Shown here in pieces: positions 58,809-64,000 of a DNA stretch of 64,000 nt (positions are counted from its first letter, which is position 1; each line of letters starts with the position of its first letter). The notes beneath the pieces are model-generated. The model was not told where the DNA came from, searched no databases, and was given only the letters and a program-made list of their open reading frames with translations. The translations under genes were made by a program, and so were the position numbers. Source of the stretch: Anaerolinea sp. (GTDB taxonomy: Bacteria; Chloroflexota; Anaerolineae; Anaerolineales; Anaerolineaceae). Where the stretch lies: positions 1 through 64,000 of the forward strand of contig JARKPU010000010.1 in NCBI GenBank assembly GCA_029975055.1, read 5' to 3'.

Positions 58809-60542
58809 ATGCTGCCTCATTCTAAAAAACCTCAACCCTTGAAGGGACATTGCTTTGCCGTCGCCTGCTATCGAAGGATGCTCCATTCGACCATCATCCT
58901 CCTGTTGCTTTGCACATGGATCACACTGCCCGCGCCAGGGCAGGTCTACGCGGCTGCAACGGTGAGCCTGGTTGCCACAGAAGACACGTGGTTGAAGTTG
59001 AGCAATTCCACGGCGAATTACGGCGGCGCAACGACGCTGCAGGCACACGCTCAGACCAGTGCCCGCCAGCATCCGCTGATCAAATGGAACCTCACCAGCA
59101 TCCCTGCAGGGGCAACCATCACCCAGGCGAGTATCACCTTTTATGTGATCGATTCATCCTACTACGTCTATAACCTGTACCAGATGAAGCGGCGTTGGGT
59201 TGAGGGGACGAATAACGGCACGGCAGGAACCGGGGCTAACTGGTTGAACTTCGACGTGGGACCTTCCGATAAATGGGGCGCATCCGGCGCAATTGATACG
59301 ATCACAGACCGTTACGATACCAACCTTTGGGACACGACCGAGAACACGTTCACCGCAAAGGGAAGTGTAACGATTTCCCTGAATGCGAGCGGCATCGCGG
59401 TGCTGCAATCCTGGCTGGCTGCTCCAACAAGCAATTATGGCCTGACTATTCAATTCCCCAACGCGCCGGCCCTGGGCGCTGATCCCTGGATCGTCGCCTC
59501 CAGCGAAGCGGCGGAGGCATCGCAACGACCAACCCTTCAGATTACCTATTCTCTCCCGCCCGCCATCACCGTCGCCGGCTCATTGAGCGATTTCACCGGC
59601 AACATCGGCATGGCATCTGCAGAGCAGTCCTACACCGTCTCGGGCAGCGACCTGGCCGAAGACATCACCATCAGCGCTCCGCCGGATTTCGAAATTTCGG
59701 CCACCTCGGGCAGCGGGTTCGGGGCCACGCTCACCCTGCCGCAAAGCGGAGGGGTGGTTGCCAACACGACGATCTATGTGCGCTTCATCCGCTCCACGCC
59801 CGGTTCGTCGAGCGGAGTACTCACCCATACCAGCGCGGGAGCCACCCCGGTGAGCATCCCGCTCAGCGGAACAGCCGGCAACGGCCCGCCATCAGTCACT
59901 CTGCTTCAACCTGCCGATGACGCCACGGGAATCGGCTACCCGGTTCTGTTGAAGGTATCTGTCAACGACCCGGATTTGAACGACGATCTGACCGTCAGCT
60001 TTTACGGGCGGGCGGCGGGGGCAATTCCGGCGGAGGAGAGCGAGCCTTATGCGCTCATCGGCACGGTCAATGACGTTGTAAAAGGCGATCACCCCGGCCG
60101 GTTATGGCAGGGGTTGACGGAGAACGTGGAGTATGAGTGGTATGTGACTGTTTCAGACGGCAACACACTGACGACCAGCCCTACCTGGAGCTTCATTGCC
60201 GGCGCCCCCACCGCGGCGAACCTCAACTACTTCCGCGCTTCTCGCAATCCGGCGGGCGTGCTCCTGAGATGGGAGACGGCTTCAGAAACCGCCACGGCCG
60301 GCTTCAACCTCTACCGGCGCGAAGGCGATGGCCTGTTCATACAGATCAACCCTGCGTTGATCGCACCACAGGCGGCCGGCCAGCCGTTCGGCGCTGCCTA
60401 CGAGTATCCAGACACAGGCGCTGAACCAGGCGCGACGTATGAATACCGGCTGGATATCCTCGCAACCAGCCTGGCGGTGAGTGATTCAACCCGGTTGATC
60501 TCCTACCCGTACTCGATCTCGCTGCCCTTGCTGGCGCGCTGA
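58809..60542 (+). CDS. secreted DNRLRE-domain protein with Ig/FN3-like domains
   Basis: Signal peptide; 'VATEDTWLKLSNSTANYGGATTLQAHAQTSARQHPLIKWNLTSIPAGATITQASITFYV'; later 'NYFRASRNPAGVLLRWETASETATAGFNLYRR'. Confidence 0.75.
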   Translation: MLPHSKKPQPLKGHCFAVACYRRMLHSTIILLLLCTWITLPAPGQVYAAATVSLVATEDTWLKLSNSTANYGGATTLQAHAQTSARQHPLIKWNLTSIPAGATITQASITFYVIDSSYYVYNLYQMKRRWVEGTNNGTAGTGANWLNFDVGPSDKWGASGAIDTITDRYDTNLWDTTENTFTAKGSVTISLNASGIAVLQSWLAAPTSNYGLTIQFPNAPALGADPWIVASSEAAEASQRPTLQITYSLPPAITVAGSLSDFTGNIGMASAEQSYTVSGSDLAEDITISAPPDFEISATSGSGFGATLTLPQSGGVVANTTIYVRFIRSTPGSSSGVLTHTSAGATPVSIPLSGTAGNGPPSVTLLQPADDATGIGYPVLLKVSVNDPDLNDDLTVSFYGRAAGAIPAEESEPYALIGTVNDVVKGDHPGRLWQGLTENVEYEWYVTVSDGNTLTTSPTWSFIAGAPTAANLNYFRASRNPAGVLLRWETASETATAGFNLYRREGDGLFIQINPALIAPQAAGQPFGAAYEYPDTGAEPGATYEYRLDILATSLAVSDSTRLISYPYSISLPLLAR

Positions 60543-60662
60543 GCCTCTCGGTAGAAGAAGATCCATGGGGCGCACCGGGCTGACAGGCGGTTCAGACAGA
60601 TCGAGGCATTTCACAATTTCGTTGCCGTTTTGAAAAGAAAATATGCCAATCCAGAGATTCTT

Positions 60663-60670
60663 GCTATAAT
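60663..60670 (+). promoter_or_regulatory. extended -10 promoter (TGC-TATAAT) of the peptide cassette
   Basis: TTGCTATAAT 60661-60670, ~20 bp upstream of the PqqD-like start. Confidence 0.5.
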
Positions 60671-60691
60671 TTTTTAACAGGGGGGAAATGC

Positions 60692-61003
60692 ATGGCAGAA
60701 ACCCACGCTCAGAGCACTGCATTGGCTGCAGTTTATAAGAAAAGCGAGTCGATCATCTCGCGGAACATCGCAGGCGAGGCCGTGCTCGTTCCCTTGCGCC
60801 GCAACGCCGCCGACCTTGATAACATCTATGCCTTGAATGAGACGGCCGCGCTGGTCTGGGAAAGCCTGGACGGGGTGAACACCCTGCAGAACGTGCTCGC
60901 TCGGTTGACTACAGAATTCGAGGTGGGAGAAGCCGAAGCCGAAAAGGATCTGCTCGAGCTGATCGCCCAACTCGAATCGCTTGGCGCGGTCATCAAGGTA
61001 TAA
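60692..61003 (+). CDS. PqqD-like RiPP recognition element protein
   Basis: 'VLVPLRRNAADLDNIYALNETAALVWESLDGVNTLQNVLARLTTEFEVGEAEAEKDLLELIAQLESLGAV': typical PqqD pattern. Confidence 0.88.
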   Translation: MAETHAQSTALAAVYKKSESIISRNIAGEAVLVPLRRNAADLDNIYALNETAALVWESLDGVNTLQNVLARLTTEFEVGEAEAEKDLLELIAQLESLGAVIKV

Positions 61004-61007
61004 GCCC

Positions 61008-62123
61008 ATGGAATGCCCGCAGACCGAACCCCTCGACCAGCCCGGCTTCTTCGAACGCCTGGCAGCCAGCGGAAAGCGCATCCCCCTCTCCGGTTCGCTC
61101 GAAGTGACCTTTCGCTGCAACCTGCGCTGCGTTCACTGCTATCTGGGCGATTTTCGCAATGGAATCGCCGGGCGGAAGGAGCTGAGCAAAGAGGAAATCT
61201 GCGGGATTCTTGACCAGGTGGCCGATGCCGGGACGCTGTGGTTCCTGTTCACCGGCGGCGAACCTTTCATCCGGCCCGATTTTTTAGAAATTTACCGGTA
61301 CGCAGCCCACAAAGGCCTGATCCTGACGGTCTTCACCAACGGCACGCTGCTCACCGAGCGCATTGTGAAGGAGCTGGCCGACCTGCCGCCCAAGCTGATT
61401 GAGATTACGCTCTACGGGGCAACCGAGCAGACTTATGAGCGCATTACCGGGGTAAAGGGATCATACGCTCGCTGCATGCGGGGGATTGATCTCATCCTTG
61501 AACATGGGCTTCCTTTAGGCTTGAAAACCATCATGATGAAGGATAATTACGAGGAATTTGACAAAATAAAAACATTCATAACAAGCAAAGGTTTGAATTT
61601 CCATTACGATCCGTTGCTGGTTGGCGCATTGGATAAATCAACATCCACATTTCCGCAGCGTCTCTCGCCTGATGAAATCGTCGCCATTGAATTAGCCAAT
61701 CAGAACATCCAGGCCGAACTTGAGAGTATGCTTGAAAGAAATAAGCAAATTCGGTTTGATAACAATTCACTCTATATTTGTGGAGCAGGTAACAACACCT
61801 TCCACATAGACCCGTATGGTAGTTTAAGCCCATGCTTACTTTCCCGTGATCCGCAATTCGACCTGACGAAAGGAACCTTTCAGGAAGGGTGGAATGGCGA
61901 CCTGAGACAGGCCCGCTCTCAACCGGCCATGAATCGAAACGGCTGCAAAGACTGTGATTTGCTAATCCTGTGCAGGCAATGTCCTGGACGATCTACCCTC
62001 GAAACAGGAAACCCTTACGATCCGGTCGATTACTTCTGTCAGATTGGAAAATTACGTGGAAAAATGATGAGGAAGGATAACGGTTTCCACGAGCAAGGAG
62101 TCTTTCATGGCTGGGAAACTTGA
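61008..62123 (+). CDS. radical SAM/SPASM peptide-modifying enzyme
   Basis: 'FRCNLRCVHCY' (CX3CX2C) at 61116-61139; SPASM-like Cys set 'ICGAG', 'SPCLL', 'NGCKDCDLLILCRQCPG', 'YFCQIG'. Confidence 0.92.
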   Translation: MECPQTEPLDQPGFFERLAASGKRIPLSGSLEVTFRCNLRCVHCYLGDFRNGIAGRKELSKEEICGILDQVADAGTLWFLFTGGEPFIRPDFLEIYRYAAHKGLILTVFTNGTLLTERIVKELADLPPKLIEITLYGATEQTYERITGVKGSYARCMRGIDLILEHGLPLGLKTIMMKDNYEEFDKIKTFITSKGLNFHYDPLLVGALDKSTSTFPQRLSPDEIVAIELANQNIQAELESMLERNKQIRFDNNSLYICGAGNNTFHIDPYGSLSPCLLSRDPQFDLTKGTFQEGWNGDLRQARSQPAMNRNGCKDCDLLILCRQCPGRSTLETGNPYDPVDYFCQIGKLRGKMMRKDNGFHEQGVFHGWET

Positions 62124-62316
62124 AGAAAACCGCGTCATTCAGAAGCCTTACGTCTCACCGAAGGTTGAGGTTATACCGCTAAAACCTAAACACACTATGC
62201 TAGGATTATGTTATTCATCCTCATTGGGCACCGGAGCAATAGAAGGAAGTGGATCTGCGGGATGTCAATATTATGACATTAATAACCAATTGACTGATTG
62301 TTTTACACGAGGATGA
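62107..62316 (+). CDS. putative RiPP precursor peptide (69 aa)
   Basis: MAGKLEENRVIQKPYVSPKVEVIPLKPKHTMLGLCYSSSLGTGAIEGSGSAGCQYYDINNQLTDCFTRG; overlaps rSAM 3' end by 17 nt with AAGGAG upstream; leader YxxP motif, Cys35/53/65. Confidence 0.75.
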   Translation: MAGKLEENRVIQKPYVSPKVEVIPLKPKHTMLGLCYSSSLGTGAIEGSGSAGCQYYDINNQLTDCFTRG

Positions 62317-62320
62317 TCTT

Positions 62321-63226
62321 GTGCATGGACAACCTGCTGCAGTAGCCGCCTGCATCCGGATGCTTTTAGGGGGTGTGTTGGTAGAATTCGATTCTCCTGG
62401 CGGTTCATTCGGGTTGGTTGCTGCTCCAATTCACCATAAGATAAGGAACGAAATTCACCCTGAATTTACCATTCATGTATTACCTTACCAGCCAGGGACC
62501 ATCGCATTTAATGATCCAGTTTTTCGGCTGAACAATTGGGAAATAAGCTCGTCTGAAGGAACGACCTTCATCTACAATCGAAATGTCAATCAAGTTGATA
62601 TTGAACGGTCAATCATTCTGGAAATCGATCCCCAACAGGGAATTGGTAAGCTTTATATCGGCGATCGAGAGAACAGCCGGCCGGCGGAGAATCAGATTGA
62701 GATCCCTCCCCTTGGTCTCGATGAAATCCTGGCAGTTCATCTATTATCGATGGGCCGGGGATTGATGTTTCATGCATCGGGTATTTCAACTCAAGGAAAC
62801 CGAGGGCTGCTATTCGCAGGATATTCAGGTGCGGGAAAATCGACCATTGCCAATTTATGGGTTGAATGCAGCCAGGGAGCTTTTTTAGGCGATGAGCGTA
62901 TTGCAGTAAGGCGGAGGGGAGATTTCTACACCATGCAAGGAACAGCCTGGCATGGGAAAGGGAGAACTACGGTTCCAGGCGAGGTTCCTCTGACCTCCCT
63001 ATTCATTATTCAGCATTCCACGGCAAACTGGTCACGCCGCCTCTCAATACAAGAAGCATCTTCACACCTCTTGCCACACGCTTTCTTACCGAATTGGAAT
63101 GAAAAAGGGATGGCATTTTCCCTGAGATTCCTTGAAGACCTGTGCACATCCGTGCCATGTTATGAATTAGGCTTCACCCCCAATCAAGACGCCGTAGATT
63201 ATGTGAAATGGCTGATCTCCTCATAG
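62321..63226 (+). CDS. HPr-kinase-like P-loop protein
   Basis: GTG start; 'GLLFAGYSGAGKSTIANLWVECSQGAFLGDERIAVRR'. Confidence 0.8.
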   Translation: MHGQPAAVAACIRMLLGGVLVEFDSPGGSFGLVAAPIHHKIRNEIHPEFTIHVLPYQPGTIAFNDPVFRLNNWEISSSEGTTFIYNRNVNQVDIERSIILEIDPQQGIGKLYIGDRENSRPAENQIEIPPLGLDEILAVHLLSMGRGLMFHASGISTQGNRGLLFAGYSGAGKSTIANLWVECSQGAFLGDERIAVRRRGDFYTMQGTAWHGKGRTTVPGEVPLTSLFIIQHSTANWSRRLSIQEASSHLLPHAFLPNWNEKGMAFSLRFLEDLCTSVPCYELGFTPNQDAVDYVKWLISS

Positions 63227-63684
63227 AGAATACCGACTTCGGTTCATTAACCACTGAACTGCTCGGTCAGGGGCACACAGTGAGGTTCCGCGTCCATGGA
63301 AATAGTATGCGGCCTTTTATTTTCGATGGTGATCTGGTGGAAGTAGAAAGAGTTGCACCAGCTAATCTGCAAACAGGGGATGTGGTATTCTGCCGGTTGA
63401 GGAACGATATGCTGGTCGTCCATAGGATCATTGGGACAAGTGAAGGAGATCTCCTCATCAAAGGCGATGCGCTGCGATCATCCGATGGAATAGTTCCACG
63501 AGAAGACGTCATAGGTGTTGTTAATGCAGTCATTCGCCGGGGTAAACGCATCGCATTGCGAAATGCTTGGACAAAAATAACTGTTAAATTTTGGGGGGCC
63601 TGTACACCACTCAGATACCTACTTAGCTATACAAGATCGGCTATATACCGGTTACTCGCCAGGGGAGTCAGACCAACGGATTAA
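63208..63684 (+). CDS. S26/S24-type signal-peptidase-like protein
   Basis: 'VHGNSMRPFIFDGDLVEVERV', 'LQTGDVVFCRLRNDMLVVHRIIG', 'IKGDALRSSDGIVPREDVIGVV'. Confidence 0.82.
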   Translation: MADLLIENTDFGSLTTELLGQGHTVRFRVHGNSMRPFIFDGDLVEVERVAPANLQTGDVVFCRLRNDMLVVHRIIGTSEGDLLIKGDALRSSDGIVPREDVIGVVNAVIRRGKRIALRNAWTKITVKFWGACTPLRYLLSYTRSAIYRLLARGVRPTD

Positions 63685-63718
63685 TCCATTGTTCAAGTTT
63701 TCACCATAGAAAGCGGCG

Positions 63719-64000
63719 ATGTTCAACCTTAAGCTGAATCAATTGGCTACGTGGATTACCATAGCTATTCTGCTCTCACAGACGGGTTGGCAAGCTTCTG
63801 CTCTACCAACCAGCCCTTCTGTGAGCAACTCCATACGTGTCCTTGAGTCCGATCAACGACATATCATCCTGGAGGTCACCACCCCGGTATACCAGTTTAG
63901 AACAGCCGCATCCAACCAGGGGTCGTGTGAATTCTTGGATGTAGACGGATGGGGACTGAACGGAATCCCGGGCGAACCGGCGTTACCCATCAAAGGCGCT
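63719..64000 (+). CDS. secreted protein, 3' truncated; N-terminus resembles a C25 (gingipain-like) peptidase propeptide
   Basis: Manual translation: MFNLKLNQLATWITIAILLSQTGWQASALPTSPSVSN...GSCEFLDVDGWGLNGIPGEPALPIKGA; signal peptide and 'PGEPALPIKG' motif. Frame open to window end. Confidence 0.45.
   Translation, partial: MFNLKLNQLATWITIAILLSQTGWQASALPTSPSVSNSIRVLESDQRHIILEVTTPVYQFRTAASNQGSCEFLDVDGWGLNGIPGEPALPIKGA

Follow-up and report, generated by a model that had tools for sequence, protein, structure and literature searches.

A candidate cassette for an undescribed class of radical SAM-modified peptide in a Chloroflexota-like genome

Results

Layout of the operon

The 64,000-nucleotide stretch of DNA analyzed here (the window) ends within an operon of seven genes, which encode a PqqD-like protein, a radical SAM (rSAM)/SPASM enzyme, a 69-aa ORF, an HprK-like protein, an S26-type peptidase, a C25 peptidase and an NTP_transf_5 protein (Table 1). 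A preliminary description of the window had recognized five packed genes on the same strand with overlaps at 62107-62123 and 63208-63226, and all of these coordinates proved accurate: the start of the 69-aa ORF overlaps the rSAM stop by 17 nt, and the HprK-like and S26-like genes overlap by 19 nt. Its assignment of the PqqD, rSAM/SPASM and S26-like families likewise held, Pfam returning PqqD, Radical_SAM, SPASM and, for the S26-like protein, Peptidase_S24. When the contig was read beyond 64000, the "possible C25 protease" at the window edge turned out to be a complete C25 peptidase of 1072 aa, and the NTP_transf_5 gene, 1 bp after it, was found to continue the operon. The extended -10 promoter placed in front of the genes is present as a sequence element, but promoter-like matches in the region do not exceed shuffled expectation (two found vs. 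a shuffled mean of 3.4 in a consensus scan).

Table 1. Features of the operon and its upstream neighbor, in positions of the window and, past its end, of the contig
Feature	Position	Strand	Basis or remark
Secreted DNRLRE protein, neighbor	58809..60542	+	C-terminal domain in common with C25 peptidase; loosely associated, non-core
Extended -10 promoter-like element, TGCTATAAT	60662..60670	+	5' of operon; consensus scan
PqqD-like RiPP recognition element (RRE), 103 aa	60692..61003	+	PF05402
Radical SAM/SPASM enzyme, 371 aa	61008..62123	+	PF04055, PF13186
Putative precursor peptide, 69 aa	62107..62316	+	Profile relatives in rSAM-HprK gap elsewhere; purifying selection
HprK-like P-loop kinase, 301 aa, GTG start	62321..63226	+	Fold search, alignment, motif comparison
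S26-family peptidase, ER/archaeal type, 158 aa	63208..63684	+	TIGR02228, SEC11A/C, SPase fold
C25 (gingipain/PorU-like) peptidase, N-terminus in window	63719..64000; to 66937 on contig	+	PF01364 and propeptide
NTP_transf_5 gene	66939-68111, beyond window		PF14907

PqqD-like, radical SAM, S26-like and NTP_transf_5 proteins

The PqqD-like protein matches PF05402 with an E value of 1.3e-15 (57.9 bits vs. a cut-off of 23.4), and among NCBIfam models it comes nearest to lasso PqqD chaperones, which score 33 and 31 bits and stay under their cut-offs. We predict that it is a leader-binding protein, for which there are no binding data. For the rSAM enzyme, PF04055 gave an E value of 1.7e-25, and the SPASM domain (PF13186) was barely over its cut-off; the CxxxCxxC motif and all SPASM cysteines are invariant in 17 relatives. 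No NCBIfam SPASM family accepts the enzyme at its curated cut-off. The highest-scoring models, AhbD heme b synthase (113 of 500 bits) and mycofactocin (108.5 of 265 bits), are far under threshold; the preliminary description, which would have been refuted by an rSAM from a known non-RiPP SPASM family, is not refuted on this count. By sequence, the closest proteins of solved structure are SkfB and PqqE, SkfB being the best PDB match. We predict a peptide maturase, the type of modification not being readable from sequence. As a separate observation, a cysteine at residue 3 (61014-61016), outside the known cluster motifs, is invariant in all 17 aligned relatives.

The S26-like protein scored 51.8 bits with TIGR02228, against a cut-off of 51.85. 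SEC11A/C are its best sequence hits, and a fold search with its structural model (pLDDT 82) recovered the signal-peptidase fold. S33, H72 and D87 are invariant in the alignment of relatives, with Ser33/His72 as the catalytic pair, and what we required of an ER/archaeal-type signal peptidase, namely the Ser/His residues plus the SPase fold, is thus met. We infer that this enzyme likely removes the leader. Neither S26 enzymes nor signal peptidases are named in a review of the proteases that cleave RiPP leaders (PMC10885120). Four loci (L036, L039, L043, L049) have no S26 gene within the stretch fetched, which we count against the RiPP reading.

The NTP_transf_5 protein (PF14907, E = 7.5e-41) is encoded at a single site in the genome, within this operon, and belongs to the cassette set. 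It is fused to the S26 peptidase in L067, L068, L072 and L085; these fusions echo clusters for phosphorylated and glycosylated lasso peptides, in some of which the nucleotidyltransferase and the leader protease form one protein (PMC8498205, PMC12710340).

The putative precursor peptide

The 69-aa ORF has no match among Pfam or NCBIfam models. In the predicted layout, the leader (residues 1-33) carries a YVSP motif, cleavage follows TMLG33, and the core, LCYSSSLG...CFTRG, contains the cysteines C35, C53 and C65. An alignment of 29 diverse members showed P18, C35 and C53 (window numbering) to be invariant. Members share a lasso-like YxxP motif in the leader, the site (V/I/T)L(G/A/S) and an invariant Cys, and they usually end in Ser/Thr; among the best loci of the class the pattern (K/R)xYxxPxVxxVxL..VLGxC was found in a small ORF of nearly every rSAM-HprK gap. 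YxxP is a known RRE recognition motif of lasso leaders (PMC12710340); a PqqD family protein and the motif are both present, a leader-RRE match that rests on sequence alone, without binding data.

The triplet (V/I/T/A)-L-x precedes the first Cys in 54 of 56 precursors. Among these 54, V/I/T/A occupies -3 in 51, and 40 have G/A/S/T at -1; in the 14 with Q/M/V/N at -1, the site counts against the RiPP reading. Signal peptidases have a -3/-1 preference, which the precursor site fits. Gingipain-type cleavage after a Lys following the first Cys was considered and rejected: 38 of 56 precursors have Lys or Arg there, but the window has Tyr.

Between the L191 and L192 precursors there are 19 synonymous and no nonsynonymous changes, and other measurable pairs also gave low ratios of codon change. 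Judged by these substitutions, the ORF is coding and constrained, under strong purifying selection. In one family (f81: L191, L192, L196), the core is almost unchanged between species despite high synonymous divergence. Such constancy points to a conserved role in the cell and away from an antibiotic in an arms race, as far as sequence comparison can indicate.

The HprK-like kinase and the peptide C-terminus

The kinase has the Walker A sequence GYSGAGKST, and a fold search with its model (pLDDT 87) matched only HprK/PEP-carboxykinase (PEPCK) structures at E ≤ 0.001. Its motif reads GDER in the window and S/N-DDR in most relatives. We compared the kinase motif with the peptide end over 60 loci of three sub-architectures. 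Where the motif after Walker A has DD, all 38 peptides end in Ser or Thr (33 Ser, 5 Thr), whereas only 8 of 22 do so beside DE or ED kinases (Fisher p = 1.8e-8, ignoring kinship). The correlation is clustered on the tree, where the two traits underwent about seven changes in all, a point that we count against the RiPP reading; a kinship-aware sign test could not have reached significance, as only three independent pairs lie on well-supported branches.

A C-terminal Ser kinase like PadeK should have the HprK fold, an intact catalytic Asp pair and a substrate with a terminal Ser. The last two are absent from the window copy, but 33 of the 38 DD-type relatives satisfy this for Ser, and 38 of 38 for Ser/Thr. 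Because the window combines a GDE kinase with a peptide ending in TRG, its C-terminal phosphorylation would probably be lost or altered.

Distribution of the cassette

Searching 298 genomes of the window's class with the HprK-like protein gave matches in 54; the gene order PqqD-rSAM-gap-HprK-(S26)-C25 is common to the best loci. The rSAM alignment, scanned against 85,462 species genomes, yielded 80 loci; those most similar to the window, in Desulfobacterota, Omnitrophota, Nitrospinota, Nitrospirota, Acidobacteriota and Verrucomicrobiota, have the same gene set, with an ORF of the same type. A profile built from the 29 precursors and run on the 298 class genomes produced 27 hits in 22 genomes, most of them in the rSAM-HprK gap, and further loci came from a kinase profile run on 399 genomes of the phylum. 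The precursor lies in the rSAM-HprK gap, adjacent to the kinase, in 43 other loci (about 16 outside the profile training set; one two-rSAM locus is left out of the count), which span Chloroflexota and the six phyla just named. The ORF is thus kept beside homologous rSAM genes, as the preliminary description expected of a RiPP precursor, and, since gene order and ORF recur in these loci, the cassette is more than chance. No dedicated transporter is conserved among the cassette loci, and this too we count against the RiPP reading.

Two further arrangements were observed. Seven loci (L056, L057, L059, L060, L061, L064, L065) follow the order NTP_transf_5-S26-HprK-PqqD-rSAM-precursor-C25, not every part being present in each, with a different precursor (W.EP.I..ER.LE..AQ..GPP..G.LGPLNAS); they probably represent another undescribed RiPP family. 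Two-rSAM cassettes (L081-L087, L089, L094, L096) carry a related precursor (W.KPEL..L.R.KPEE.VL..CK), and their HprK and rSAM are either fused or adjacent. They resemble SynChlorMet but stay below the NCBIfam cut-offs where scanned, and we dropped their identification as SynChlorMet for missing these cut-offs.

The C25 peptidase and a shared C-terminal domain

The C25 peptidase matches PF01364 (E = 9.1e-89) and the C25 propeptide, with PorU and gingipain as PDB matches; it is not a type IX secretion (T9SS) PorU sortase by NF033707, for which it scores only 241 of 420 bits. C25 genes lie near the cassette in 25 of the 35 loci examined and appear in other phyla as large proteins upstream of PqqD. 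Five loci (L066, L067, L068, L072, L078) have the rest of the set with no C25 seen within the stretches covered. C25 is also common without the cassette: 200 of 298 genomes of the class have it, and in 17 of a sample of 20 further C25 loci neither PqqD nor HprK lies nearby.

Both the C25 peptidase and the upstream DNRLRE protein end in a WETxSE..GFNLYR domain (60222-60539 of the window; L004:6120-6431), two of whose four copies in the genome are at the operon. Cassette-bearing genomes that were checked contain one to four copies, many near the cassette and often beside C25. The domain also accompanies C25 genes without a cassette, which weakened the idea that C25 and the domain are cassette-specific. 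As both occur without the cassette, their distribution in sequence marks them as a separate module that often joins it; the C25 peptidase is a genuine member of the operon but not a universal one among the loci. The domain may serve a PorU-like system outside Bacteroidota as a substrate or an anchor.

Discussion

The preliminary reading of the operon as an undescribed RiPP cassette is supported by the conservation of the precursor and by an rSAM enzyme that stays under all NCBIfam SPASM family cut-offs. We think it somewhat probable that these genes together make a modified peptide belonging to an undescribed RiPP class, with no product, mass shift or structure in hand. Our literature search found no paper on the cassette, many subscription journals not being covered.

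At the level of sequence, gene content and order, precursor conservation, enzyme families, active-site residues and the correlation between kinase motif and peptide terminus are established; every chemical step of the following pathway is inferred. The PqqD-like protein would bind the YxxP leader, and the rSAM/SPASM enzyme would modify the core, most likely by a crosslink at the invariant Cys that immediately follows the leader. Phosphorylation of the C-terminal Ser/Thr would fall, in most relatives, to the HprK-like kinase, and NTP_transf_5 may decorate this phosphate, as in phosphorylated and glycosylated lasso peptides. The Sec11-like S26 peptidase would cut the leader off at (V/I/T)-L-(G/A/S). 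At most but not all loci, an exported C25 peptidase may act extracytoplasmically, with the peptide or co-encoded surface proteins as its targets, a role that is unproven. By analogy, the kinase and nucleotidyltransferase are best read as a module of the phosphorylated-lasso type.

Other explanations start from the same genes. The cassette could be an accessory of the C25 peptidase, in which case the small ORF would serve this PorU-like protease and its C-terminal-domain substrates as a pro-peptide, inhibitor or anchor peptide, with the RiPP enzymes modifying it to that end. The C25 gene in the window's operon and in 25 of 35 neighborhoods, and the domain common to C25 and the adjacent secreted protein, agree with this, but the five loci with the rest of the set and no C25 seen, together with the abundance of C25 without the cassette, leave it unlikely. 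A related proposal, that the modified peptide is a conserved tag or anchor for the exported C25 peptidase, joined to or traded for the surface-protein domain rather than secreted as an antibiotic, strikes us as very doubtful; if true, it would mean a RiPP used for protein sorting. We regard it as highly improbable that the small ORF encodes a regulatory or structural protein instead of a substrate. There is no biochemistry to rule this out, and within one genus the core has stayed highly conserved, which many antimicrobial cores have not, but the leader/core layout, RRE motif, invariant Cys and a terminal residue that tracks the kinase motif all count against it.

That the operon is a divergent SynChlorMet (Scm) cassette, and so already catalogued, is unlikely in our judgment. 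The likeness noted in the preliminary description is real, as PqqD, rSAM and HprK-like proteins occur in both, and it is strengthened by two-rSAM relatives with a similar precursor (L081-L087, L094) and by the L066 kinase, which matches ScmC weakly (32 of 125 bits). It is nevertheless distant: the window reaches only 83 of 400 bits for ScmE and 20 of 100 for ScmD, ScmC is not among the hits of its kinase, it has one rSAM rather than two, and no precursor model matches. The RRE, YxxP leader, kinase and nucleotidyltransferase are, in turn, parts of lasso clusters, and one could imagine such a cluster without its cyclase and with an rSAM gene adjacent by chance. We find this hardly credible, given that the B2 protease PF13471, required of a lasso cluster, has no match in the whole genome and that the rSAM is constant in the homologous loci examined in seven phyla. 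Nor was a lasso cyclase recognized on reading the ORFs around the operon (without a PF00733 profile).

If the RiPP reading is correct, a precursor family and its cassette, present in at least seven phyla that are mostly uncultured, have been missed by Pfam and NCBIfam models. The findings also suggest that the C-terminal-Ser kinase/nucleotidyltransferase module of lasso peptides is a portable tailoring unit that also works with radical SAM chemistry, and they make a Sec11-like S26 enzyme a candidate for the leader peptidase of a RiPP.

Each of the known systems shares part of this set. SynChlorMet (TIGR04248-TIGR04251) brings together PqqD, HprK-like and rSAM/SPASM proteins, but has two rSAM enzymes where the cassette has one, and the cassette, which falls far short of the cut-off of every Scm model, adds S26, NTP_transf_5 and often C25. 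Type IX secretion PorU/gingipain proteins have the same pro-domain and C25 domain, whereas here the C25 peptidase lies under the NF033707 cut-off, and its gene belongs to a putative RiPP operon in a Chloroflexota-like genome. Sactipeptides and ranthipeptides are likewise made by SPASM rSAM enzymes on Cys-containing cores, SkfB is the best PDB sequence match here, and the invariant Cys beside a SPASM enzyme fits them in sequence, with the linkage type unknown; they differ from the cassette in its stand-alone RRE, kinase and nucleotidyltransferase, and the rSAM falls below the cut-offs of the StsB, AlbA and PapB models. With the phosphorylated and glycosylated lasso peptides paeninodin and pseudomycoidin, the cassette has in common a stand-alone PqqD-type RRE, a YxxP leader, an HPr-kinase homologue (PMC8498205, PMC12710340), a nucleotidyltransferase and, in relatives, the C-terminal Ser, which the window copy lacks; the rSAM/SPASM and S26 enzymes set it apart. 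It is best read as an RRE-dependent radical SAM peptide class that shares its tailoring module with phosphorylated lasso peptides and has an rSAM enzyme in place of the lasso cyclase.
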